This document shows, in pieces, positions 1 through 12,675 of a stretch of DNA of 42,242 bases. A model generated the notes under the pieces. That model was not told the DNA's origin, did not search any database, and saw nothing but the letters and a program-made list of their open reading frames with translations. The stretch comes from Acidimicrobiales bacterium (GTDB taxonomy: Bacteria; Actinomycetota; Acidimicrobiia; Acidimicrobiales; MedAcidi-G1): contig JAERSW010000032.1 of NCBI GenBank assembly GCA_016845305.1, forward strand, positions 1 through 42,242, in the 5' to 3' direction. The position numbers were made by a program, and so were the translations under genes. The stretch's first letter is position 1; each line of letters begins with the position of its first letter.

Positions 1-1879
1 AGAAGTGCATGTTCCACTGGCGGCCGCCGTTGTGACCGGCGTTGCCGCTCGACCTCCCCCGCTCCATCGCCTCGGCCCCGAGCCGCTGGTACGAGAGCAT
101 TCCGTGCTCCCGTTCGACGTGGTCGGCGACGCAGTCGTCCCGATCCCGATGACCGCGCTCGGCCCGACGGTCGCAGTTGACCCCGATCAGGTCGATCGCC
201 GCGGTCTCGTCGAGGCCCTGGACCCAGTATTCGAGCGGGCCGTAGGCACCCCACTCGGCCATGGCGATCAGCAGGGCCCGGGTCACCTCGGTGCAGGCCA
301 GGTCGGGTACGTCGACGGCGCAGAACACCTCCGGCGTGTAGCCCACCTGCTGGCCGTAGACGTCGATGCCGATCGGGGCGACCGGTGCCCCGGCGGCCAC
401 GCAGTACCGGTGGGCGTTCCGATCGGTGCACGCCACCTCGGTTCCGAGCGACCCGTCCGGCACCGCCGTGGTCGTCGGCGGCCGCGTGGTCGAGGGGGGC
501 GCCGTCGTGGCTGGTGCCGCCACCTCCTCGTCGCCACCGCGGAGGATCGCCAACTGGTCGTCCAGGTCCCGGGCCAGGAACCCGTCGAACTCCTCGTAGA
601 ACTCGTCGGGTGTCATCCCGTAGGCGTGGGCGAACGCCCCCTCCCAACCGAGGTCCTCGAGGACCGGGTAGAGGTCGTCGAGCAGGGCGTCGGCGCCGAA
701 CCGGTGGGCCAGCCAGGCGTGCGCCCACGGGCCGAACCCGAACGCCAGGTCCGAGCAGTCCTCCCCGTACCCGACGTCGCCCATCGACGCGTCGGGGCAC
801 CGGTCACGGGTCGCCCGACCCATCTCCATGCGCTGCCGCATCTCGCCTTCGAACGAGAACGACCACCGTCCCTCGACGTTCACCTCGGGGAGCACGCCCG
901 ACGCCTTCGTCCGGTCGTAGGCGGCCAACCCCATCCAGTCGGCACCACCCTCCACGAACCAGACCGGGCCCATGGCCCCGCCGTACCGGGCCCGGTGGTC
1001 CCCGGTCATCAGGAACGAGTGCTGCACGGCGTGGAAGTACTCGTGCAGCACGGTCACCTGGTCGCCGGCACCCGACGACCGAAAGCGGTCGGTGAAGCCC
1101 CACGGAGGCGACGACGTGTAGAAGTGGACGTTCCAGCCCCGGTTGCCGTTGTGCCCCATGCTCCCACCGGGCCGGTCGGTGGCCTCGTACTCGACGGCGG
1201 TCCGGTGGTACCAGCTGAAGCCCTCGACGGCGTGATGGTCCATGCACTGCCCGAACGCCCTCTGGCCGCGGTCGTCGCGTCGACGGCACATCACCTCGGT
1301 CAGGTCGTCGACGGCCTTGGCGTCCAGACCGACCACCCAGTACTCCACCGGGCCGTAGTTCCCCCACTCCTGTGCGCCGACGGCCAGCGTGCGGGCGACC
1401 TCCCGGCAGACCGTCGGGTCGAGGTCGACGGTGCACAGCGCCTCGGGCGACCACGGGACGATCTCGCCCCACTGCTCGACCGGCCCGGGGGCCACCGGCA
1501 TGCCGTCGACCACGCAGGTCCGGTGGGTGGGCAGGTCGTGGCACGTCACCTCGGGCGTACCACCTGCCCCGGCCGGCGGTGCCACCGTCGTCGTGGTGGG
1601 CACCCCCGTCGTCGTCGTAGCAGTGGGTGCCGTCGTAGCAGTGGGTGCCGACGTGGCAGCGGGTGCCGTCGCGGTCGGGGCTGCAGTGGCGGGTGCCTCC
1701 GTCGTCGTGGTCGCCGCGCCGGTGGTGCCCGACGGCGGTTCGGACGTGGCCACGGGAGCCTCGGCAGTCGTGCCCGGTGGCGCGGTCGTCGAGGTCGCCG
1801 CGACCTCCGTCGACGACGAGCAGGCGGCCGCCAGCACCGCCAGCACGACGACCACCCGCCTCGATCCGAACACCTGCAT
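1..1879 (-). CDS. Secreted lipoprotein with repeated HExxH zincin-like domains (3' end outside window)
   Basis: The frame stays open to the window edge, giving 626 codons without a stop. The N-terminus MQVFGSRR, a hydrophobic stretch and LAAAC (Cys20) form a lipoprotein signal. A long Thr/Ala/Pro linker follows, then a globular domain with HEYFHAVQ (H279, E280, H283) and, 27 residues after the second His, E310-GGA-D314. That HExxH plus ExxxD pattern is what gluzincin metallopeptidases show. After a second Pro/Thr linker a second copy of the same domain begins and is cut just before its expected HExxH. The start ATG overlaps the stop of the upstream paralogue (TGATG at 1878-1882), so the two are probably translated together. 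The likely role is a surface-anchored peptidase. Substrate unknown; family not recognised by name. Confidence 0.8.
   Translation of the reverse strand, partial: MQVFGSRRVVVVLAVLAAACSSSTEVAATSTTAPPGTTAEAPVATSEPPSGTTGAATTTTEAPATAAPTATAPAATSAPTATTAPTATTTTGVPTTTTVAPPAGAGGTPEVTCHDLPTHRTCVVDGMPVAPGPVEQWGEIVPWSPEALCTVDLDPTVCREVARTLAVGAQEWGNYGPVEYWVVGLDAKAVDDLTEVMCRRRDDRGQRAFGQCMDHHAVEGFSWYHRTAVEYEATDRPGGSMGHNGNRGWNVHFYTSSPPWGFTDRFRSSGAGDQVTVLHEYFHAVQHSFLMTGDHRARYGGAMGPVWFVEGGADWMGLAAYDRTKASGVLPEVNVEGRWSFSFEGEMRQRMEMGRATRDRCPDASMGDVGYGEDCSDLAFGFGPWAHAWLAHRFGADALLDDLYPVLEDLGWEGAFAHAYGMTPDEFYEEFDGFLARDLDDQLAILRGGDEEVAAPATTAPPSTTRPPTTTAVPDGSLGTEVACTDRNAHRYCVAAGAPVAPIGIDVYGQQVGYTPEVFCAVDVPDLACTEVTRALLIAMAEWGAYGPLEYWVQGLDETAAIDLIGVNCDRRAERGHRDRDDCVADHVEREHGMLSYQRLGAEAMERGRSSGNAGHNGGRQWNMHF
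1617..1670. repeat. Three 18-bp tandem repeats inside the linker of the first lipoprotein
   Basis: Units at 1617-1634, 1635-1652 and 1653-1670 are near-identical (GTAGCAGTGGGTGCCGTC and variants). They encode the Ala/Pro/Thr-rich linker after the lipid anchor on the minus strand. Copy number may vary between strains. Confidence 0.8.
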
Positions 1880-4380
1880 CACCCCGATTCGACGGCCCAG
1901 AAGTCGACCAGCTCGGCCAACGGCCGGTCGGGGAAGAACCCGTCCGGCGGCGGATCGTCCGGATCACCGGACCGCATGAACGCGTTGTACGACTCGTAGA
2001 ACTCGTCGACCGTCATCCCGACGTGCTCGACGAACGACCCCTCGAAGCCCAACGCCCACATGTCCTCGAGCAGGTCCACCCACACCGTCTGCCACGACGC
2101 CAGGTACGCCAGGTACACGTTCATCAGGAACCAGTGCGGGTGCGAGCACTTGGCGGTGTGGCGGTACTCCTCGTCGACGCCGACGCCACGGCACTCACCG
2201 TCCTCGCCGTACACGATCTCCCGACGGGCCGTCCGCAGGATCTCCTCCCACCGGAACCGCAGGATTCCCCCGAGCTGGGTGTCGGTCGAGTTGGCCACCG
2301 TCAGGCCGTGCTCCCGGCTCCACGACAGATCGTCGAAGTGCTCCTTCACGAAGACGTGCGGGAAGGCGATCGCAGAGCCCTCCACCCACCAGGCCGGCGC
2401 GCTCACCGGATCGTTGAGGCCGCAGCAGTCGTCGGGCATGGCCAGCGCCCGGTCGAAGATGTGGGCCCGCTGGTAGTGGTGGAAGTACTCGTGGACCCAC
2501 CCGTGGAAGATCCCGTACCGGTAGTTGACCGGCCCGTGATTCCGCCGGTCGTTCACCGCCCACTCCGGTTCGCCAGGAGTGGGCACCAGCGGGTTGGGGT
2601 TCACGCAGAAGGAGTACTGGTGACGACCGTCGTGCCGATTGAACGCCCAGAAGGCCGAGAGGCAGCTCCGAATCTCGTGGACCTGGTCGATCGAGGTGAC
2701 CAGTTCGCCACCCCTGCCCATGACGCCGAGCTCCCTGAGTGCCCGGAGGCTCTCGGTGTTGGGGTCGTCGAGGTTGTAGACGATGTGGACGTACCGGTCG
2801 TACCCGCCGACCGTGTCGACCAGCAGGTCATGGATCTGGGCGTGCTGGGCGATGAAGTCCTCGGGAATGGTCTCCGAGAACAGGTACCAGTGCTGCGGGT
2901 CGGCCTTGGGCTCGTTGAGGCCGATCCGCTGCAGGTACTCCTTGGCCGTCTCCGACGCATCCGTCGTGGGTGGCTGGGTCGTGGCCGGTGGTGACGTCGT
3001 GGTGGGCGGCGGTTCGGTCGTCGGTGGAGGCGATTCGTCATCCTCCGGCTCCGCCGCCCCGTCGGCTCCGCCCGCGGTCGGGAGGTCGGGCAAGATCGCC
3101 AACTGCTCCTCGATGTCGAGGGCCAGAAACCGGTCGAACTCGGCGTAGAACTCGGCGGGCGTGATGCCGTAGGCATGGGCGAACGCCCCGTCCCAGCCCA
3201 GGGACTCGAGTGCCGGATAGAAGACGTCGAGCAGCACGTCGGATCCGAACCGATGCTCCAGCCAGGCGTGTCCCCACGAGCCGAGGCCGTAGGCGGCGTC
3301 CCCGCAGTGGTCGTAGTCGACGTCGCCGAGGGTCAGGCCCGGACAGCCGGCCAGCACCTCGACGCCGTCGAGCATCCGCCACCGCATCCTCTGCCGGACG
3401 TCGAAGGGGTCGCGGCCCTCGACGTTGACCTCGGGCAGGGTCCCGTCGGCGAGCAGGCGGCGGACCGCCGTGTGACCCATCCAGTCCGCACCCCCCTCCT
3501 TGAACCACACCGGGCCCATGGCGTCACCGAAGCGCGTCCCGTGGTCGGTGGTCGACAGGTGGGCGTGCTGGACGGCGTGGAAGAACTCGTGAAACTGCGT
3601 GGTCTGGACATCGGTGCCGGAGATGTTCGAGAAGTGGTCGGTGAAGCCGAACGGCGTCGACGAGGTCAGCCAGTGGATGCCCCACTCGCGCCGGCCGCAG
3701 TGACAGGCGTCCTCCCTCGCCCGCCCCTCGGCCACGGCCCGGGCCCCGAGTTCGTGGTACCAGAGCAGGCCGTGCTTCTCCTCGAGGTTGCGTTCCAGGC
3801 AACCGGAGAGCGACTGCTGCCCCCGGGCCGCACGGCGCTCACAGTTGACGTGGACCAGGTCGACCGACGGCGCCTCGTCGATGCCCATCACCCAGTACTC
3901 GACCGGACCGTAGGAACCCCACTCGCCCATGGCGACCAGGAGCGACACCGTCGTCTCTCGACACAGCATCTCGGGGAGGTCGCGGGCGCAGAAGACCTCG
4001 GGGCTGAAGCCGACGGGCCGACCCCAGAACTCGTCGCGGCCGTGGTCGGCGGGGACGACCGGGACCCCGGGTGCCACGCAGTACCAGTGGGTGCCCTCGT
4101 CGGTGCACGCCGCGGTGGTTCCCAACGACCCGGGCGGTGCCGGATCATCCGCCGGGACCGCGTCGGCGTCGCCAGCCGGCGACACGGTGGTCGTGGAGTC
4201 AGTGGAGGCATCCGCCTGCGTCGAGGATTCCGGGTCCGAGGTCGGATCGTCGGAGACCACCGTCGCCGCGGTGGACGGGGTCCCGGACACGGTCGTCGCG
4301 GCTGCCGACTCGGACCGTTCGGATCCACCCGAGGAACAGCCGGCAGCCACCACGGCAACGGCGATCAACACCCGGGCCAT
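1879..4380 (-). CDS. Secreted lipoprotein with two HExxH zincin-like domains
   Basis: From the ATG at 4380 this is 833 residues. MARVLIAVAVVAAGC gives a lipoprotein signal with lipobox Cys15. The frame extends upstream (GTG at 4410 or 4434), so the start is not certain. Domain 1 carries HEFFHAVQ (H264, E265, H268) and E295-GGA-D299, with the same spacing as the downstream paralogue. An acidic, Pro/Thr-rich linker (about residues 430-480) leads to domain 2. Domain 2 is clearly different in sequence: HEYFHHYQ (H630, E631, H634) and a possible third ligand at E667 in WWVEGSA, with no Asp four residues on. Both domains end in a similar motif (TPAEFYAEF and TVDEFYESY), followed in domain 2 by a short tail. 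Predicted: surface-anchored double metallopeptidase, substrate unknown. It overlaps the next gene by TGATG. Confidence 0.82.
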   Translation of the reverse strand: MARVLIAVAVVAAGCSSGGSERSESAAATTVSGTPSTAATVVSDDPTSDPESSTQADASTDSTTTVSPAGDADAVPADDPAPPGSLGTTAACTDEGTHWYCVAPGVPVVPADHGRDEFWGRPVGFSPEVFCARDLPEMLCRETTVSLLVAMGEWGSYGPVEYWVMGIDEAPSVDLVHVNCERRAARGQQSLSGCLERNLEEKHGLLWYHELGARAVAEGRAREDACHCGRREWGIHWLTSSTPFGFTDHFSNISGTDVQTTQFHEFFHAVQHAHLSTTDHGTRFGDAMGPVWFKEGGADWMGHTAVRRLLADGTLPEVNVEGRDPFDVRQRMRWRMLDGVEVLAGCPGLTLGDVDYDHCGDAAYGLGSWGHAWLEHRFGSDVLLDVFYPALESLGWDGAFAHAYGITPAEFYAEFDRFLALDIEEQLAILPDLPTAGGADGAAEPEDDESPPPTTEPPPTTTSPPATTQPPTTDASETAKEYLQRIGLNEPKADPQHWYLFSETIPEDFIAQHAQIHDLLVDTVGGYDRYVHIVYNLDDPNTESLRALRELGVMGRGGELVTSIDQVHEIRSCLSAFWAFNRHDGRHQYSFCVNPNPLVPTPGEPEWAVNDRRNHGPVNYRYGIFHGWVHEYFHHYQRAHIFDRALAMPDDCCGLNDPVSAPAWWVEGSAIAFPHVFVKEHFDDLSWSREHGLTVANSTDTQLGGILRFRWEEILRTARREIVYGEDGECRGVGVDEEYRHTAKCSHPHWFLMNVYLAYLASWQTVWVDLLEDMWALGFEGSFVEHVGMTVDEFYESYNAFMRSGDPDDPPPDGFFPDRPLAELVDFWAVESG

Positions 4381-4514
4381 CGGATGCCCCACCCGCACGA
4401 CTCGTCTCACGAACCCTCCCCGCCCGCGGCCCACTCGGAGGCCACCATCACGAATCTGCCACGATCGGCCCGGGCCCGTCTACCGAGGGACGGCCACGAC
4501 CGGGAGGACCCACC

Positions 4515-6152
4515 ATGGGCAGGTACGGCAGCGGCATGGTGGTGGCCGCCCAGCCCGAGGCGACCGAGGCGGGAGTCGACGCGCTCCGGGCCGGCGGCAA
4601 CGCCGTGGACGCCGCGGTGGCCAGCGCGCTGGTGGCCGGCGTGGTCGACCCGCAGATGTGCGGGATCGCCGGGTTCGGCAGCGCCCAGCTGTTCCTGCCC
4701 GGCGCCGGCGAGGGCGGTGGCGCCCTCCACACGTGCGTCGACTTCCACGGCACGTCACCCGCCGCGGTGCGGTCCGACATGTGGGAGCACCTGCTCGTCG
4801 GCGAGACCCGCGACGGCTTCGGGTTCATCCTCGACGGCAACGTCAACGACGTCGGCTACCAGTCGATCACCACGCCGGGCTCACTGCTGGCCTACCACGA
4901 GGCCCAGACCCTGTACGGGCGGCTGCCATGGGCCGACGTCGTGGCCCCGGCCATCGCCTGGGCCGAGGAGGGGTTCCTGCTGCGGCCCGGCGTCGTCCAC
5001 TGGTGGCACGAGGGCGCCACGCTCGGTCGTGCCGACAACGTGTCCCGTCTGGCCCACACCGCGGCCGGCCGGCGCATCTACTTCCACGACGACGGGTCGC
5101 TGCGACGCATCGGCGAGGTACTCCGCAACCCGGACATGGCCCGGACGCTGCGGCGCATCGCCGAGGGTGGTGCCGACGAGTTCTACCGGGGGTCGATCGC
5201 CGCGGAGATCGACGCCGACATGCGGGCCAACGGCGGCCTGCTGACCGCCGAGGACCTGGACGGCTACCGCACCACGTGGGGCGAGCCGCTGCGCACCACC
5301 TACCGGGGCCTCGAGGTGGCCACCAACCGGCCGCCGGGCGGCGGCGTGATGGTGGCCGAGATGCTCAACGTGCTCGAGCACTTCGACCTGGCGGCGATGG
5401 TCCGCGACGGCGGCCACAACGGCGTCGAGTACGTGCGCACGGTGGCCGAGGCGATGAAGTGGGCGACGGCCGACAAGGAGGCCCACGTCGGCGATCCCCG
5501 GTTCGTCGACGTGCCCCTCGAGTGGCTGCTGTCCGACGAGCGGGCCGCGGAGCTGGGCGGGCGGATCGCGGCCGGCGAGCGGGCCCACGTGGACCGCATG
5601 GCCGGCGAGTCACCGGACACCACCCACGTGTGCGTGGTCGACGCCGACGGCAACGCCGTGTCGATGACCCACTCGCTGGGCATGCCGTCCGGCGTGGTCA
5701 CCGAGGGGCTGGGGTTCATGTACAACGGCTGCATGGGGGTGTTCGACCCCCGGCCCGGCCGACCCGGGTCGCTGGCACCGGGCAAGAGCCGGTTCACGTC
5801 GCTGTGCCCGACGATGCTCCTCGAGGACGGGGCCCCGCGGCTCGTGGTCGGGGCGCCGGGTGGCACCCAGATCGCCATGGGGGTGCTGCAGGTGCTGCTG
5901 AACGCCGTGGACCACTCGATGCCGGTGCTGGACGCCGTCTCGGCGCCCCGGTTCTCGGCGACCAGCGACGCCATCGACGTGTGCAACCGGATCCCCCGGT
6001 CGGTCACCCGGGAGCTGGAGGCCGACGGCTACGAGGTGGTGCGGTGGCCCGGCTCGTACGAGTTCGCCCGGGTGCACGCCATCGCCATCGGCGACGACGG
6101 GCTCTCGGGCGCCGCTGATCCCGGCGCCGACGGCATGGCCCTCGCCCCCTGA
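4515..6152 (+). CDS. Gamma-glutamyltransferase family protein
   Basis: 545 residues, a usual length for the gamma-glutamyltranspeptidase N-terminal-nucleophile hydrolases. These self-cleave into two subunits and hydrolyse or transfer gamma-glutamyl groups. The N-terminal GMVVAAQPEAT and AGGNAVDAAVA motifs are present. The autoprocessing site is TTHVCVVDADGNAV, with the predicted nucleophile at T369, followed by PGGTQI. No signal peptide is visible from this start, so it is probably cytoplasmic, unlike the periplasmic E. coli enzyme. The ATG at 4515 has a GGGAGG ribosome binding site at 4502-4507; the longer open frame upstream is antisense to the lipoprotein gene. The substrate could be glutathione-like, or a gamma-glutamyl amide given the GS-like gene at 14977. 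That link is speculative. Confidence 0.88.
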   Translation: MGRYGSGMVVAAQPEATEAGVDALRAGGNAVDAAVASALVAGVVDPQMCGIAGFGSAQLFLPGAGEGGGALHTCVDFHGTSPAAVRSDMWEHLLVGETRDGFGFILDGNVNDVGYQSITTPGSLLAYHEAQTLYGRLPWADVVAPAIAWAEEGFLLRPGVVHWWHEGATLGRADNVSRLAHTAAGRRIYFHDDGSLRRIGEVLRNPDMARTLRRIAEGGADEFYRGSIAAEIDADMRANGGLLTAEDLDGYRTTWGEPLRTTYRGLEVATNRPPGGGVMVAEMLNVLEHFDLAAMVRDGGHNGVEYVRTVAEAMKWATADKEAHVGDPRFVDVPLEWLLSDERAAELGGRIAAGERAHVDRMAGESPDTTHVCVVDADGNAVSMTHSLGMPSGVVTEGLGFMYNGCMGVFDPRPGRPGSLAPGKSRFTSLCPTMLLEDGAPRLVVGAPGGTQIAMGVLQVLLNAVDHSMPVLDAVSAPRFSATSDAIDVCNRIPRSVTRELEADGYEVVRWPGSYEFARVHAIAIGDDGLSGAADPGADGMALAP

Positions 6153-6194: not shown

Positions 6195-6872
6195 TCAGGA
6201 CCCCGTGGGACAGGTCAGGTCGAGGTCCTCGCCCATCGCCGCGTTGAAGCCCTCGCGGCCGTGGGTGAACAGGGCCACGAACCACGAGGCCACGTCCTCC
6301 TCGGTGAGGCCCGCCAGCAGGCAGTCGGGATCCTGGGGCACGCCGAGAGCGGTCATGTCGGCGTGCATCATGGCCCGGAGGTCCACGCAGAAGCCGACGG
6401 GCTGCACGAGGGCCAGGGCGTCGTCGACCTCCATGCCGCCGGTCTGCGCCGCCGACATGAGCGCCGCGGTCCGGCCCATACCCTCGACCTGCATCATCGT
6501 GACGACGACGCACTCGGCCTCCTCCTCGGACCAGTGCCGGCCGAGCACGGGGTGCATCCGGTAGTTCGACATCCAGCTCGAGTAGAGGGTCATCTGCTTC
6601 TCGACGGCGCCGTTGTCGGCGCCCTTCGCCATGAGCTCGTCGGCCCGCGCCTCGGCGGCGGCACGGTCCAGCCCGTCGCGTTCCATCACCAGTCGCACGA
6701 GCGACTCGCGGACGTCGTCCATCATCGCCTCGGTGTCCACGGTGGTGGTCGGCGCGGCAGGGACGGTCACCGTGGTGGGCGTCGTTGCCGCCGACTCCGA
6801 CCCGTCGTCGTCTGAACAGGCGGGGGCCACCAGGCACGCGGTGACGACCAGGGCGAGGGTGCGGAGGCGCAT
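6195..6872 (-). CDS. Small secreted lipoprotein of unknown function
   Basis: 225 residues. The signal MRLRTLALVVTACLVAPAC, with lipobox Cys19, is followed by an acidic and Thr-rich linker (about residues 20-50). A mostly helical, Met- and Glu-rich domain follows, with Cys residues near ECVV, GFCVDL, PDCLL and LTCP that could pair. No enzyme motif was recognised. The start ATG at 6872 is fixed by the signal peptide; the open frame continues upstream, but antisense to the S15 hydrolase. It is divergent from that hydrolase with 81 bases between starts. Confidence 0.75.
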   Translation of the reverse strand: MRLRTLALVVTACLVAPACSDDDGSESAATTPTTVTVPAAPTTTVDTEAMMDDVRESLVRLVMERDGLDRAAAEARADELMAKGADNGAVEKQMTLYSSWMSNYRMHPVLGRHWSEEEAECVVVTMMQVEGMGRTAALMSAAQTGGMEVDDALALVQPVGFCVDLRAMMHADMTALGVPQDPDCLLAGLTEEDVASWFVALFTHGREGFNAAMGEDLDLTCPTGS

Positions 6873-6953: not shown

Positions 6954-8966
6954 ATGGAGCAGCACCCGGACACCCTGCCGTTCGAGGTCCGGGTGGTCGA
7001 ACACGTGACCGTCCCGCTGGGCGACGGCGGCCACCTCTCGGCACGGATCTGGTTGCCCGTCACCGACGGTCCGGTCCCCGCCATCCTCGAACACCTCCCC
7101 TACCGCAAGGACGACGCCACCCTGTTCCGCGACCAGAGCCAACTGGCCTGGTTCGCCGGTCAGGGCTACGCGTGCGTCCGGACGGACCTGCGCGGCACCG
7201 GCGACTCGTCGGGGGTCATCCGCGGCGAGTACCTGGCCGAGGAACTGTCGGACGGCGCTGAGGCCATCGCCTGGATCGCCGACCAGCCCTGGTGCGACGG
7301 GAACGTCGGCATGTGGGGGATCTCGTGGGGCGGGTTCAACTGCCTGCAGGTGGCCGCGCTCCGCCCCCCGGCGCTCAGGAGCATCATCTCGGTGGCCAGC
7401 ACGACGGACCGCTACGGGGCCGACGTCCACTACGACGGCGGATGCGTCCTCGCATCGCAGATGCTCCCGTGGGCGACCGACATGCTGTGTCGGAACGCGT
7501 TGGCGCCCACGCCGCGGATCGTCGGCGACGACTGGAAGTCCCGGTGGATGGAGAGGCTGGAGGCCACACCGCCGTTCATCGACGACTGGCTCGGCCACCA
7601 GACGAGGGACGGCTTCTGGCGGCACGGTTCGGTGGGCGACGACTTCGACGCCATCGCGGTTCCGTCCCTGGTGGTGGCCGGCTTCGCCGACGGCTACTCG
7701 AACGCGCCGTTCGCCGCCGTCGAGGGCATGGGCGACCGGGCGTGGGGGCTGGTCGGGCCGTGGGCCCACCAGTACCCGGAGATGGGCGTCCCCGGTCCGG
7801 CCATCGGCTTCCTCCAGCACGCCCTGGCCTGGTGGGACCGGTGGCTCAAGGGCATCGACAACGGCGTCGACCGTCAGCCCCGGCTCCGCCTGTGGATGCA
7901 GGAGTGGACCGACCCGTCGGACCGCACCGGCGACCGGCCGGGCCGCTGGGTCGCCGAACCGTCGTGGCCGCCACCCGAGGGCCACCTGGCCGAGTCGGTG
8001 TGGTTCCCCGCGGACGGACGCCTCGGGTGGGGACCGGCCACCGGCGCGGAACGGGTCGCCACCAGCCAACTCCACGGGCTGCTGGCCGGCCACTGGTGGG
8101 GCAGCGGCGAGCCGGCCACCCTGCCCGCCGACCAGCGGACCGAGGACGAGCGAGCGACGACGTTCACGACAGATCCGGCCGAACGGTCCGAGGAGCTGTG
8201 CGGCGTCCCGGTCGTCGAGCTGCGGGTCGCCGTCGACCGGCCCGACGCCCTGCTGGCCGTCCGCCTGTGCGACGTGGCCCCGGACGGTTCATCGCTCCTG
8301 GTGAGTCGTGGGCAGCTGAACCTGACCCACCGCCACGGACACGACCGGCCCGAACCGCTGGTCCCCGGCGAGGAGGTCGACGTGGCCATCCGCATGGACG
8401 CCGCGGCCCACGTACTCCCGGCCGGCAACCGGTGGCGCCTGTCGGTGGCCACCACCAACTGGCCGCTGGCGTGGCCGTCTCCCCATCCGGTGGTGGCCGA
8501 GGTCCGCCTCGGCGACGCCACCCGCCTTCGGCTCCCCCTCCGACCACCCAGGAGCGATGACGCCGACCTCGACGGGTTCGGCCCGCCGGTCTGGACGCCG
8601 TCGAACCGGGTCACCCTGGTCGAACCCACCTCCGACCGGACGATCGAGACGACCTCGGGCACCACCGTCCTGCGGACCACGGCCAGCAGTGGCCGCCACG
8701 TCATCGACTCCCACGGAACGGTCATCGGCTCCGGGGAGGAGGACGAGTACACGATGGACGGCGATGACCCGTTGTCGGCGAGGGTCCGGTGCGTCCGCGG
8801 GTCCGAGGTGTCGTGGCCGGGCGACCGGACGAGGGTCCGGGCCGAGGCCACGATGCGGGCCGACGAGACCACCTGGTTCGTCGAGAGTCGGCTGCAGGCG
8901 TGGCACGACGACGAGCTGGTCTTCGACCGTCGCTGGCCGATCGCCGTGCCACGCCACCACGTCTAG
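6954..8966 (+). CDS. S15/CocE-type alpha/beta hydrolase (X-Pro dipeptidyl-peptidase-like)
   Basis: 670 residues. The N-terminal half is an alpha/beta hydrolase of the CocE/NonD and Xaa-Pro dipeptidyl-peptidase S15 group. It has LPYRKDD and TDLRGTGDSSG near the N-terminus, nucleophile S124 in GISWGG, and likely partners D246 in VAGFADGYSN and H272 in GPWAHQYPE. A beta-rich jelly-roll C-domain (about residues 330-540) and a further extension to 670 follow. Family members cleave esters, amides or acyl-amino-acid bonds; the substrate here cannot be read from sequence. No signal peptide is seen. The start is set by the conserved N-terminus and the -10 box just upstream. Confidence 0.88.
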   Translation: MEQHPDTLPFEVRVVEHVTVPLGDGGHLSARIWLPVTDGPVPAILEHLPYRKDDATLFRDQSQLAWFAGQGYACVRTDLRGTGDSSGVIRGEYLAEELSDGAEAIAWIADQPWCDGNVGMWGISWGGFNCLQVAALRPPALRSIISVASTTDRYGADVHYDGGCVLASQMLPWATDMLCRNALAPTPRIVGDDWKSRWMERLEATPPFIDDWLGHQTRDGFWRHGSVGDDFDAIAVPSLVVAGFADGYSNAPFAAVEGMGDRAWGLVGPWAHQYPEMGVPGPAIGFLQHALAWWDRWLKGIDNGVDRQPRLRLWMQEWTDPSDRTGDRPGRWVAEPSWPPPEGHLAESVWFPADGRLGWGPATGAERVATSQLHGLLAGHWWGSGEPATLPADQRTEDERATTFTTDPAERSEELCGVPVVELRVAVDRPDALLAVRLCDVAPDGSSLLVSRGQLNLTHRHGHDRPEPLVPGEEVDVAIRMDAAAHVLPAGNRWRLSVATTNWPLAWPSPHPVVAEVRLGDATRLRLPLRPPRSDDADLDGFGPPVWTPSNRVTLVEPTSDRTIETTSGTTVLRTTASSGRHVIDSHGTVIGSGEEDEYTMDGDDPLSARVRCVRGSEVSWPGDRTRVRAEATMRADETTWFVESRLQAWHDDELVFDRRWPIAVPRHHV

Positions 8967-9031
8967 CCGTCCGAAGGGGACGGGAGGGATCCGTCGGGCC
9001 TCCCAGCCCGGGCGGCGGGAAGCGCGACGGG

Positions 9032-9043: not shown

Positions 9044-9847
9044 ATGACCGTGCGCACCGGGGTCGACGGAACGGTCGGGATCGTCACCATCGACCGGCCG
9101 GAGGTCCGCAACGCGGTGGACGGCCCGACCGCCGAGGCCCTCGACGAGGCGTTCCTGGCCCTGGAGGCCGACGACGGGATCTCGGTCCTCGTCCTGACCG
9201 GAGCCGCCGGAACGTTCTGTGCCGGCGCCGACCTGAAGGCCATCTCGGCCGGTCTCGGCAACCGGATCACCGAGCCCGGCCCGAACGACATCGTCGACTC
9301 GCTCGGCCCGATGGGTCCGACCCGCCGGGTGCTGTCCAAGCCGGTGATCGCCGCCGTCGAGGGCCACGCCGTGGCCGGCGGCCTCGAGCTGGCGCTGTGG
9401 TGCGACCTGCGGATCGCCGCCACCGACGCCACGTTCGGCGTCTACTGCCGACGCTGGGGCGTTCCCCTGGTGGACGGCGGCACCGTGCGCCTTCCCCGGC
9501 TCATCGGCCACAGCCACGCCATGGACCTGATCCTCACCGGCCGGCCCGTCTCCGGCGACGAGGCGCTGCGCATCGGCCTGGCCAACCGCCTGTGCGAGCC
9601 CGGTACGGCGCTGCCCACGGCCGTCGAGTTCGCCCGGGGCCTGGCCGCCTTCCCGCAGGGCTGCCTGCGGTCGGACCGGCACTCCGCCATCGAACAGTGG
9701 GGCCTCGACCTGGGCGGCGCGCTGGCCAACGAGGTGGGCCTGGGCATGGCCACCGTCCGCAGCGGAGAGACCGTGGACGGGGCGTCGCGCTTCGCCGCCG
9801 GCGAGGGCCGGCACGGTTCGTTCGACGCGTTCTCGCCGGACCGATGA
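9044..9847 (+). CDS. Enoyl-CoA hydratase/isomerase (crotonase) family protein
   Basis: 267 residues, normal crotonase length. The oxyanion-hole motifs are present: FCAGADLKA (about 58-66) and AVEGHAVAGGLELA (about 104-117). Aligning GGLELALWCDL and the FG...GGTVRL segment to rat enoyl-CoA hydratase without gaps, E115 matches Glu144, but C135 (FGVYCRRWG) stands where Glu164 should be. A standard hydratase reaction is therefore doubtful; isomerase, hydrolase or lyase chemistry on a CoA ester is possible. It is first in an operon: its stop overlaps the next ATG as ATGA at 9844-9847. The longer upstream frame is antisense-like filler. Confidence 0.85.
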   Translation: MTVRTGVDGTVGIVTIDRPEVRNAVDGPTAEALDEAFLALEADDGISVLVLTGAAGTFCAGADLKAISAGLGNRITEPGPNDIVDSLGPMGPTRRVLSKPVIAAVEGHAVAGGLELALWCDLRIAATDATFGVYCRRWGVPLVDGGTVRLPRLIGHSHAMDLILTGRPVSGDEALRIGLANRLCEPGTALPTAVEFARGLAAFPQGCLRSDRHSAIEQWGLDLGGALANEVGLGMATVRSGETVDGASRFAAGEGRHGSFDAFSPDR

Positions 9848-10350
9848 GCTCGTCCCCGTCGCGGCCCGCCCGCCGTCGGGCCAACCTGGTCGACGGCGAG
9901 TGGCGCTGGTCGTTCGCCCGCCACCAGCCCATCCCCGACGCCCTCGAGCCCGACCGGACCTACCTCGACCGGTGGCGGTTCGACACGCCCCTCGGGTCGG
10001 TGTTCCTCCACGCCATCCGGCTCCCCGACCGCGACCCCGATCCACATACCCACCCGTTCTCCTGGTCGCGCAGCCTCATCCTGAAGGGCGGCTACACCGA
10101 GGAACGCGGGCCGTTCGCCGAAGAGGTCCGCGAGTACGGACCGGGAAGCGTCAACCGCATCGACCACGACACCGCGCATCGCATCGTCCGCACCCGGGGC
10201 GACCGCCCGGTCTGGACGCTCTTCATCGCCGGAAAGCCCCACGGGCGCGGCTGGGGCTTCGTCGTGGACGGTCGGTACGTGGACCACAAGGAGTACCTCG
10301 CCGGCCGGAACACCCGGGCCCCGCAATCGAGACCAAGGGGAGCCACATGA
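9844..10350 (+). CDS. Cupin-like protein
   Basis: 168 residues. The central part reads as a cupin beta-barrel, with a possible metal site around H68 and H70 in PDPHTHPFSW, followed by a Gly-rich strand (GGYTEERGPF), GPGSVNRID and H112 in DTAHRIV. N-terminal Arg-rich and C-terminal tails are probably disordered. The enzyme or binding role is unknown. It overlaps the genes on both sides by ATGA (9844-9847 and 10347-10350), so it is made together with the crotonase and the nucleoside hydrolase. Confidence 0.7.
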   Translation: MSSSPSRPARRRANLVDGEWRWSFARHQPIPDALEPDRTYLDRWRFDTPLGSVFLHAIRLPDRDPDPHTHPFSWSRSLILKGGYTEERGPFAEEVREYGPGSVNRIDHDTAHRIVRTRGDRPVWTLFIAGKPHGRGWGFVVDGRYVDHKEYLAGRNTRAPQSRPRGAT

Positions 10351-11306
10351 GCCGTCGCAGCCTCGTCATCGACACCGACACCGCCTCGGACGACGCCGTG
10401 GCCCTCCTGCTGGCCGGCCGCGACCCGGAGGTCGACATCCGCCTGGTCACCATCGTGGCCGGGAACGTCCCCGTGGACCTCGGGACCCGGAACGCGCTGG
10501 TCACCCTCGACCTCCTCGGCCTGACCGACGTCCCCGTCCACGTCGGCGCCGACCGGCCGCTGGCACGCAGCCTGGAGACGGCGCAGATGGTCCACGGGGC
10601 CGACGGCATGGGCGGCGCCGACCTCCCCGCCCCGTCACGTGCCCCCGACTCCGAGGACGCGGTCGCCGCCCTGGTCGACGTCGCCACCACCGAGCCGGGT
10701 CAGCACGCCCTGGTGACGCTGGGCCCGCTCACCAACGTGGCCCGGGCCCTGGCCGAGGACCCCGACCTGCTCACCCGGTTCACCCACACGTACCTGATGG
10801 CCGGGTCGCCGGACGGCGTGGGCAACGTCAACCCGCTCGGCGAGTACAACGTGTGGGCCGATCCCGAGGCGGCGACGGCCGTGTTCGACGCCCCGGGACC
10901 CAGGACGATGATCGGCTGGAACATCAGCCGCACCCAGGCCGTCATGACGCCGCCCGAGACGGCACGGCTCAGGGACTGCGGTCCACTCGGCGAGTTCGCC
11001 GTGGCCATCAACGCCGACGTGGAACGGTTCTGCCTCGAGACGTCGGGCCTGGCCGGCATGGACCTGCCCGATCCCGTGGCCATGGCCGTCGCCCTGGACG
11101 ACTCGATCATCCTCGAGGCGACCGACGAGTGCCTGGTCATCGGGCTGGACGAGCCAACCCGCGGCGCCGTCCTCCCCGACCGGCGGGCCCACCCGGGTCC
11201 GGCCACCACCCGGGTGGTGTGGAGCGTGGACGAGGCCGCCTTCAAGGACCGCCTCTACACGGCGTGCACCGGCGATGTCCTCAGAGGGCCACCGTCACCG
11301 ACTTGA
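10347..11306 (+). CDS. Inosine/uridine-preferring nucleoside hydrolase family protein
   Basis: 319 residues, the usual length. It hydrolyses the N-glycosidic bond of ribonucleosides in this family. The calcium/ribose-binding motif DTDTASDD is at 9-16, HGADGMGG at about 79-86, and the family motif NPLGEYNVWADPEAA follows; a Leu-Pro-Asp-Pro segment near the C-terminus carries a further conserved Asp. The base specificity cannot be read. Translation is coupled to the cupin gene by ATGA. The 3' end overlaps the convergent aldehyde dehydrogenase gene by 26 bases (11281-11306). Confidence 0.88.
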   Translation: MSRRSLVIDTDTASDDAVALLLAGRDPEVDIRLVTIVAGNVPVDLGTRNALVTLDLLGLTDVPVHVGADRPLARSLETAQMVHGADGMGGADLPAPSRAPDSEDAVAALVDVATTEPGQHALVTLGPLTNVARALAEDPDLLTRFTHTYLMAGSPDGVGNVNPLGEYNVWADPEAATAVFDAPGPRTMIGWNISRTQAVMTPPETARLRDCGPLGEFAVAINADVERFCLETSGLAGMDLPDPVAMAVALDDSIILEATDECLVIGLDEPTRGAVLPDRRAHPGPATTRVVWSVDEAAFKDRLYTACTGDVLRGPPSPT

Positions 11307-12675
11307 GCTGCGTGTAGTGGTGCAGGGCCTCGATGCCCTTCTCCCTGCCGATCCCGCTCTGCTTGTAGCCGCCGAACGGCGTCTCGATCCCCGTACCCCA
11401 GGTGTTGACGAACACCTGGCCGGCCTCGAGGCGCTCGGCCACCCGATGGGCCCGCGACAGGTCCCGGGTCCACAGGCCGGCGGCCAGGCCGAAGTCGGAG
11501 TCGTTGGCCAGCGCCACCGCCTCGTCCTCGTCGTCGAACGGCATCACGACCAGCACCGGCCCGAAGACCTCCTCCCGGGCGATCCGCATGTCGTTGGCGA
11601 CCCCCGTGTAGATCGTGATCTGCGGGGTCCACTCGTCGACCATCGACCCCCCGACCACCGCGGTCGCCCCCTCGGCCTCGGCGATAGCCAGGTACTCGGC
11701 GACCTTGTCGCACTGGGCGGTGGTGGCCAGACGGCCGACGTGCACCGCGGCCTCGTCGGTAGCCGCCACCAGGGCGTCCACGAACTCGTCGTGGATGGAA
11801 CGCTCCACGTACAACCGGGTGCCGTTGGAGCAGACCTGGCCGGTGTTGAGCACGAAGGCCCGCATCGACCCCTCGACCGCGGCGGCCAGGTCCGCGTCCC
11901 CGAACACCAGGTTGGCCGACTTGCCGCCCAGCTCGAGGGTCACCGGGATGATCCGCTCGCTGGCCACCCGCCCGACCTCCCGGCCGGCCCGCACCGACCC
12001 GGTGAACGCCACCTTGCGGACGTCCGGGTGGCCGGTCAGCGCCGCGCCGACCACCGGGCCGACGCCGGTGACCACGTTCAGCACCCCGTCGGGGAACCCG
12101 ACCTCGGTGGCGAGGCGGGCCAGCTCCAGCGTCGACGCCGACGTCTCCTCCGACGGCTTGACGACCACCGTGTTGCCGGCGGCCAGCGCCGGCGACACCG
12201 CCCGGGCCGCCTGGCCCAGCGGCAGGTTCCACGGGGTGACCACCCCGACCACCCCGAACGGCTCGCGCCGGGTGTAGCTGTGGAATCCGGGGCCGAGGTC
12301 CAGCACGTCGCCGGCCTCCAGGTTCACGAGGCCGGCGTAGAACTCGAAGTAGTCGGCCGACACCCCGACCTCCACCGGTCCCAGGAAGTCCGGCTTGCCG
12401 ACCTCGCGGTTCTCCAGGTCGGCCAGCATGGCGGCCTCGTCGCGCATGGCCTGCGACAGGGCCATGAGGAGGCGACCCCGTTCGATGGGCTTCCGGTTCC
12501 GCCACCCGTCGCGCGCCGCATGGGCGGCGGCCACCGCGGCGTCGACGTCGGCCGCCGAGCCCTCGGCCACCTCGCACACCAGCGCCCCGGTGCCCGGCTC
12601 GGTCGACGTCCGCCACGTCGACCCGGACGGGGCGACGTCCGCACCGTCGATCCAGTGTCCGTAGCGGTGCACCAT
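11281..12675 (-). CDS. NAD(P)-dependent aldehyde dehydrogenase
   Basis: 464 residues, slightly short for the ALDH superfamily. It oxidises an aldehyde to the acid. Visible are TPWN (N150), PSEE after the NAD-binding lysine K173, FTGSVRAG, general base E248 in LELGGKSANLVF and nucleophile C282 in NTGQVCSNG, then EEVFGPVL and the C-terminal PFGGYKQSGIGREKG. An AGGAGG ribosome binding site sits 5 bases upstream of the ATG at 12675. It is transcribed divergently from the P450-ADH-GS-like operon, so it may oxidise an aldehyde made by the alcohol dehydrogenase. The pathway is inferred, not shown. Confidence 0.92.
   Translation of the reverse strand: MVHRYGHWIDGADVAPSGSTWRTSTEPGTGALVCEVAEGSAADVDAAVAAAHAARDGWRNRKPIERGRLLMALSQAMRDEAAMLADLENREVGKPDFLGPVEVGVSADYFEFYAGLVNLEAGDVLDLGPGFHSYTRREPFGVVGVVTPWNLPLGQAARAVSPALAAGNTVVVKPSEETSASTLELARLATEVGFPDGVLNVVTGVGPVVGAALTGHPDVRKVAFTGSVRAGREVGRVASERIIPVTLELGGKSANLVFGDADLAAAVEGSMRAFVLNTGQVCSNGTRLYVERSIHDEFVDALVAATDEAAVHVGRLATTAQCDKVAEYLAIAEAEGATAVVGGSMVDEWTPQITIYTGVANDMRIAREEVFGPVLVVMPFDDEDEAVALANDSDFGLAAGLWTRDLSRAHRVAERLEAGQVFVNTWGTGIETPFGGYKQSGIGREKGIEALHHYTQLKSVTVAL

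Follow-up and report, generated by a model that had tools for sequence, protein, structure and literature searches.

The proteins described here appear closest to two families of gluzincin peptidases (clan MA, HExxH...E), M1 and M30. In the M1 enzyme PSA, exchange of Tyr438 for Phe cuts kcat 1000-fold (PMC10343166); since Glu375 and Tyr438 lie 63 residues apart, as do the WLNEGF Glu and the YSKG Tyr in the PSA chain aligned in this study, Tyr438 should be the YxKG tyrosine. The title of an entry for the M30 peptidase lugdulysin mentions a mutant Y315F. Several peptidase domains of unequal activity in one anchored chain are found in somatic ACE. Carboxypeptidase D is built alike (PMC5683605) and serves as a works-like analogy only: both enzymes are eukaryotic and belong to families unrelated to the domains analysed below.

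In this study, we analyzed a window of 42,242 nucleotides (bases 1-42242 of contig C32 in a draft genome of 2.9 Mb) with two adjacent genes encoding proteins A and B. As the window starts at base 1 of the contig, its left edge is a real contig end.

Proteins A and B

The main domain type was designated d1, and the divergent type of A domain 2 was designated d2. The features of the two proteins are as follows.

1879..4410, minus strand: protein A, 843 aa, lipoprotein-like, two zincin-like domains (stop included)
4336..4350, minus strand: lipobox-like VAAGC of A, from sequence
4117..4335, minus strand: Thr/Ser/Pro/Ala-rich stalk of A, from composition
3085..4116, minus strand: A domain 1 (d1 type); HEFFH 3577-3591, Glu 3496-3498, Tyr 3289-3291, complete gluzincin set
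1882..2952, minus strand: A domain 2 (d2 type); HEYFH 2479-2493, Glu 2380-2382, without the YxxG tyrosine
1879..1882, minus strand: overlap of A stop (TGA) and B start (GTG/ATG), from sequence
2..1882, minus strand: protein B, 627 aa visible, open at the contig edge
1820..1834, minus strand: lipobox-like LAAAC of B, from sequence
536..1555, minus strand: B domain 1 (d1 type); HEYFH 1031-1045, Glu 950-952, Phe 740-742 replacing Tyr
2..442, minus strand: B domain 2 (d1 type), cut ahead of its HExxH

The best start of protein A is GTG 4410, with GGGAGG directly upstream, which corrects the start at 4380 assumed in the earlier note; its stop is TGA 1881-1879. Protein B starts at GTG 1882 or ATG 1879, and the two genes overlap in GTGATG (sequence there GGGTGATGC). 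The start/stop overlap described previously is therefore present, and co-translation of A and B is plausible. Both frames are open throughout and have the lipoprotein-like starts that had been proposed: VAAGC (A) and LAAAC (B), which we take to be lipobox-like from the general lipobox pattern, each follow a short hydrophobic stretch as read from the sequence. Thr, Ser, Pro and Ala make up 65% of residues 27-95 in the stalk of A and 84% of residues 21-105 in that of B.

B domains 1 and 2 are 53% and 51% identical to A domain 1, in agreement with the earlier reading of three domain copies of one type. The fourth domain, A d2 (HEYFHHYQ), is divergent, as had also been recognized, with a match to the d1 profile in its C-terminal half (hhalign Prob 97). 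The spacing between the second His and the downstream Glu is 27 residues in A d1, 33 in A d2 and 27 in B d1. Three such motifs were observed, compared to 0.00245 expected by chance per A+B pair (20,000 residue shuffles). Judged by these features, A and B are a real pair of putative surface lipoprotein-like proteins with repeated gluzincin domains.

A further relative is encoded in the same genome (L017 59-1471, plus strand, contig C2; hhalign Prob 98.7) as a single-domain, lipoprotein-like protein. It carries a Thr-rich stalk and the motif HELWHVFQ...WWMEGSA, and it has kept the YxxG tyrosine.

Predicted catalytic residues and the YxxG tyrosine

In the d1 alignment, H174, E175, H178 and E205 are present in 23/23 rows reaching these columns. 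For HExxH, this conservation is to some extent built in, as the six search patterns included EYFHAVQH; none of them contained the distant Glu (E205). Tyr275 is found in 22/23 rows; only B d1 differs, with Phe (codon 742-740), a change that involves a single codon of a draft genome.

We then surveyed the tyrosine across 45 motif-bearing domains, two of which end before the Tyr place, leaving 43 scored; as the domains were selected by HExxH...EGxA, the tyrosine is the only free observation in this survey. It is kept in 38/43 domains (36 by pattern and two, L060/L108 and L100, by eye), and in 37/40 after removal of the window's three. The remaining five comprise B d1 with its Phe and four domains with no YxxG, namely A d2, both full d2 relatives (L067 and L068) and L097. 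HExxH and the downstream Glu are all present in A d2 and its two full relatives.

With Phe in B d1 and no YxxG in A d2, the whole set is found, among the complete window domains, in A d1 alone, and the predicted catalytic set across the array is uneven: Tyr in A d1, Phe in B d1 and none in A d2. Given the Phe of B d1, the lack of a YxxG tyrosine in A d2 and its retention in most scored domains, the earlier description as a "double or triple metallopeptidase" is generous. The Phe and the missing tyrosine, together with repeated stalked domains that would suit capture, would be in line with A and B being mainly binding or scaffold lipoproteins, i.e., a pseudopeptidase array whose zinc sites serve the fold or peptide binding, with little catalysis, and which, for example, passes peptides to uptake systems or holds a partner. 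We consider this unlikely, since A d1 retains HExxH, Glu and Tyr, and a tyrosine kept in 38/43 domains would be needless for a pure binder.

Comparison with known families and predicted fold

Neither A and B nor any of the 24 aligned d1 domains scored over the cut-off of a Pfam model, and no NCBIfam model was reached by A, B or B d1 (scores given for these only), which is in line with the earlier statement that the proteins match no named family. Partial resemblance among the 24 d1 members was found to NF045524 (23 members), NF033876 (23), PF01752 (21) and PF05299 (15), with best NCBIfam E-values over the d1 members of 8.5e-9 for flagellinolysin and 6.5e-7 for MXAN_6640. All scores given stay below the cut-offs: for the putative metalloprotease MXAN_6640 (NF045524), B d1 reaches 25.2 and protein A 17.8 of 140 bits; for flagellinolysin (NF033876), B d1 reaches 16.4 of 205 bits; for M9 collagenase (PF01752, 26 bits), B d1 reaches 17.7 and the best member 23.6 (L057), with none listed for A d1; and for M61 (PF05299, 22 bits), the best is 17.1 (L050). 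The likeness to these four is mostly local, around HExxH...EG.

With M1, the window proteins have in common the predicted gluzincin fold, HExxH plus a downstream Glu and, in most d1 domains, a YxxG tyrosine that is the putative counterpart of the M1 one. However, no PF01433 match was found in the 24 d1 members, the Glu of M1 sequences follows the second His by 19 residues compared to 27 or 33 in the window domains, and the M1 motif GxMEN is missing from d1 (none ahead of HExxH in 24 rows; L039 has "MEN" behind the motif only). Local profile alignment of d1 against 12 M1 sequences was not significant (Prob 0.46, P 0.13); read in the same register, this weak alignment matches E205 to the M1 Glu and column 275 to the YxKG Tyr. 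The global profile alignment covered 13 columns and no motif. With M30 lugdulysin, the predicted gluzincin fold is likewise shared, but an M30 model (PF10460, which we take to be that of Pfam) is not among the Pfam matches of the 24 d1 members. The repeated domains on a stalk distinguish A and B from both M30 and M1.

The AlphaFold2 model of d1, built on the d1 alignment, is confident (pLDDT 91.5, pTM 0.92); helix 166-183 carries HExxH, and helix 201-222 carries Glu205. Foldseek listed M1 peptidases first but weakly (best E 0.018; none at E <=0.001). VIA-align matched the model to M30 lugdulysin 7bb8 (Z 15.0, rmsd 3.9 over 245) and M1 PSA 8sw0 (Z 15.0, rmsd 3.5 over 235), the remaining listed rows being M1 entries going by title. 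As five largely helical models lacking any clear Foldseek match had a typical best Z of 14, a Z of 15 is only just higher and not decisive by itself. Nevertheless, all listed rows are HExxH gluzincins and the motifs agree, so that the assignment of the predicted d1 fold as a gluzincin, nearest to M30/M1, is fairly safe. M4, M9 and M61 are absent from the structure-match lists in which M1 and M30 appear, which excludes none of them. A sequence search of solved structures with P0001 gave 11 weak matches (best E 0.36), of which ten were phosphocarrier HPr, and the A3 profile gave no match among them.

The d2 model, built from distant alignment rows only, is poor (pLDDT 58.4), and the likeness to its best match, lugdulysin (Z 9.3, rmsd 4.8), is suggestive only. 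Of the thermolysin-like fold considered in the earlier note, a zincin fold is predicted with confidence for the main domain, as a gluzincin nearest to M30/M1, while the d2 model is too poor for such a statement.

Taken together, the d1/d2 proteins are a new subfamily and architecture and not a new kind of system, as the type of enzyme is known. A literature search, with preprints and most subscription papers outside its scope, found no description of these proteins.

Relatives and their architecture

The domain is not unique to this locus. Including the genome analyzed here, d1 relatives were detected in 15/61 near-relative genomes (weak and partial matches counted), in 17/298 genomes of the order by profile search and in 2/396 genomes of the phylum by single-sequence search (the other at E 2.7e-4). 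A pattern search of named MAGs yielded 32 candidate stretches, which gave 23 d1 loci; one of its six patterns is the HExxH stretch itself. The labels of these 23 loci, which can be wrong, are Acidimicrobiales, Actinomycetota, Chloroflexi, SAR324, Planctomycetota, Pedosphaera and Alphaproteobacteria. On viral contigs, 18 stretches fit a pattern, none of which is a relative, and no stretch was found for d2.

At E 0.001, d2 has no match in the family's 47 other genomes. Among 397 genomes of the order, it stands alone as a lipoprotein-like protein in G766 (48%) and G504 (38%) and also occurs, partly masked, in G564 and G640. In total, 27/397 genomes matched at E up to 0.1; our count keeps the own genome and the four strong ones and leaves out 22 genomes at E 0.0016-0.1. 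The weak matches in G713, G554 and G022 are genes that the d1 profile also finds.

We compared architectures in 48 proteins or fragments (E <1e-9, contained copies removed), 44 of which have at least one motif and four of which, without a motif, are cut or masked. Two complete motifs are found only in A, and more than one domain only in A and B; where other frames show a pair of profile pieces (e.g., L030, L039, L067), these belong to one domain split in two. As no fewer than nine further frames are truncated by the end of their locus or contig (L027, L028, L034, L036, L046, L052, L093, L094, L098) and four are cut or masked, additional multi-domain proteins may have been missed. Within their first 130 residues, 26/48 frames contain a crude lipobox pattern, in some cases surely by chance. 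Single-domain d1 proteins encoded in MAGs (e.g., L040, L041, L043) are 34-48% identical to B d1. They differ from A and B in having one domain each and other N-terminal parts; L041 resembles A and B in its Thr-rich stalk and lipobox-like start. By sequence comparison, the domain itself is ordinary and was seen elsewhere as one copy per protein, and what is new is its repetition and fusion and the uneven predicted catalytic set.

Among the frames examined, the multi-domain layout is thus confined to the own genome, where B runs off the contig, and the syntenic L040 has one gene with one domain. This could indicate that the two-protein layout is partly an artefact of the draft assembly. We regard this as very improbable: neither frame is interrupted and both have lipoprotein-like starts, two subfamilies are fused in frame within A, and with an identity of only about 50% between the d1 copies, misjoining is unlikely.

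Other architectures and neighbours were observed among the relatives. In L038 (6150-9008, plus strand; SAR324 label), 15 MORN repeats precede d1 in one open frame. L048 (4234-5826, plus strand) and L058 (7374-8951, plus strand), both with Alphaproteobacteria labels, show a weak N-terminal match to a ricin-type lectin (21.6 and 13.7 of 25.6 bits). L039 (Anaerolineales label) encodes neighbouring, separate zincin proteins of two subfamilies (7779-9023 and 9176-11953, plus strand). Under Anaerolineales and Actinomycetota labels, the d1 gene is repeatedly preceded by an upstream GYD-domain gene (PF08734 in L039), at the following sites.

L039 5722-6171, minus strand: GYD-domain gene
L041 6643-6966: GYD-domain gene
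L044 6925-7260: GYD-domain gene

A conserved operon was considered and rejected, as flanks are shared mainly among near relatives and only single frames recur across labels.

Locus, synteny and probable origin of the array

Two genes upstream of A are relevant for the comparison with L040, whose d1 protein is that of the same-genus genome G009 (L020).

4479..6149, plus strand: gamma-glutamyltranspeptidase gene (PF01019, 400 bits), between A and the small lipoprotein gene
6198..6836, minus strand: small lipoprotein-like gene, with a homologue directly beside the single d1 gene in L040

In L040, the order is the small lipoprotein homologue, one single-domain d1 gene and a class-III aminotransferase gene. 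The first two are about a dozen bases apart, so that no gamma-glutamyltranspeptidase gene is present there. In the own genome, the aminotransferase side of the L040 locus maps to the end of contig C17. This end encodes a lipoprotein-like protein (L133 4685-3444, minus strand) with HEVLHQMGLPDLYD, an M6-like HExxHxxGxxD motif, and a match to the M6 domain below the cut-off (TIGR03296, 47.2 of 110.8 bits). The simplest view is that C32 and C17 would flank one unassembled gap; their ends share no exact overlap of 10 bases or more, and this putative adjacency is read from synteny with L040 only. On the same basis, the M6-like protein would lie close to the far side of the gap, behind protein B.

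Within 12 kb of A there are also genes for a nucleoside hydrolase, a glutamine synthetase and an S15 peptidase. Together with the gamma-glutamyltranspeptidase gene, this neighbourhood would fit a leaning to nitrogen scavenging, possibly by chance. A different role, in which A and B form a specific processing enzyme that matures or sheds one surface protein or peptide of the own cell and is not a scavenging peptidase, would be consistent with the patchy occurrence (15/61 near relatives) and the little conserved neighbourhood across genera. No candidate substrate was found, however, and the neighbours lean, maybe by chance, in the other direction; we therefore assign this role a low probability.

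In the d1 tree, in which both complete window rows have an odd letter make-up, A d1 and B d1 pair at 89/96, under the starred level, and B domain 2 is unplaced; all three form one clade in 7% of 200 bootstraps. This makes a lineage-specific duplication likely but not proven. Domain duplication within its own lineage, together with fusion to a second subfamily found alone elsewhere, probably gave rise to the array.

Proposed function

Based on architecture, conserved motifs, the predicted d1 fold, single-domain kin and same-genus synteny, we consider it reasonably probable that A and B are membrane-anchored, stalked surface gluzincin peptidases in which A d1 is fully equipped and the other domains are weakened or substrate-holding, the array having expanded in the lineage. 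After secretion, both proteins would be lipid-anchored, and their flexible Thr/Ser/Pro/Ala-rich stalks would hold the gluzincin domains off the cell, where these may cut proteins or peptides. Zinc would be bound by His, His and Glu, the Glu of HExxH would activate a water molecule for attack on the substrate and, in A d1 only, the YxxG tyrosine would aid the transition state. A d1 would probably be the fully equipped enzyme of the array, and B d1 (Phe) and A d2 (no Tyr) may be zinc-binding but slow, or serve as substrate-holding modules.

A more far-reaching possibility, which we put forward tentatively and by analogy, is that the equipped gluzincin sits beside Tyr-less, zinc-binding sisters that position the substrate, within a surface cluster continuing across the gap with the rest of B and the M6-like lipoprotein; such an array might be a bacterial counterpart of carboxypeptidase D or ACE.

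These proteins would leave the current understanding of metallopeptidase action unchanged. They outline a coherent gluzincin subfamily, putatively surface-located in uncultured bacteria and without a name in the curated libraries scanned, and they may contribute to our picture of how such bacteria break down proteins and peptides. As domains with Tyr, with Phe and without Tyr stand together in one array, they would also offer a small natural test of the role of the gluzincin tyrosine.
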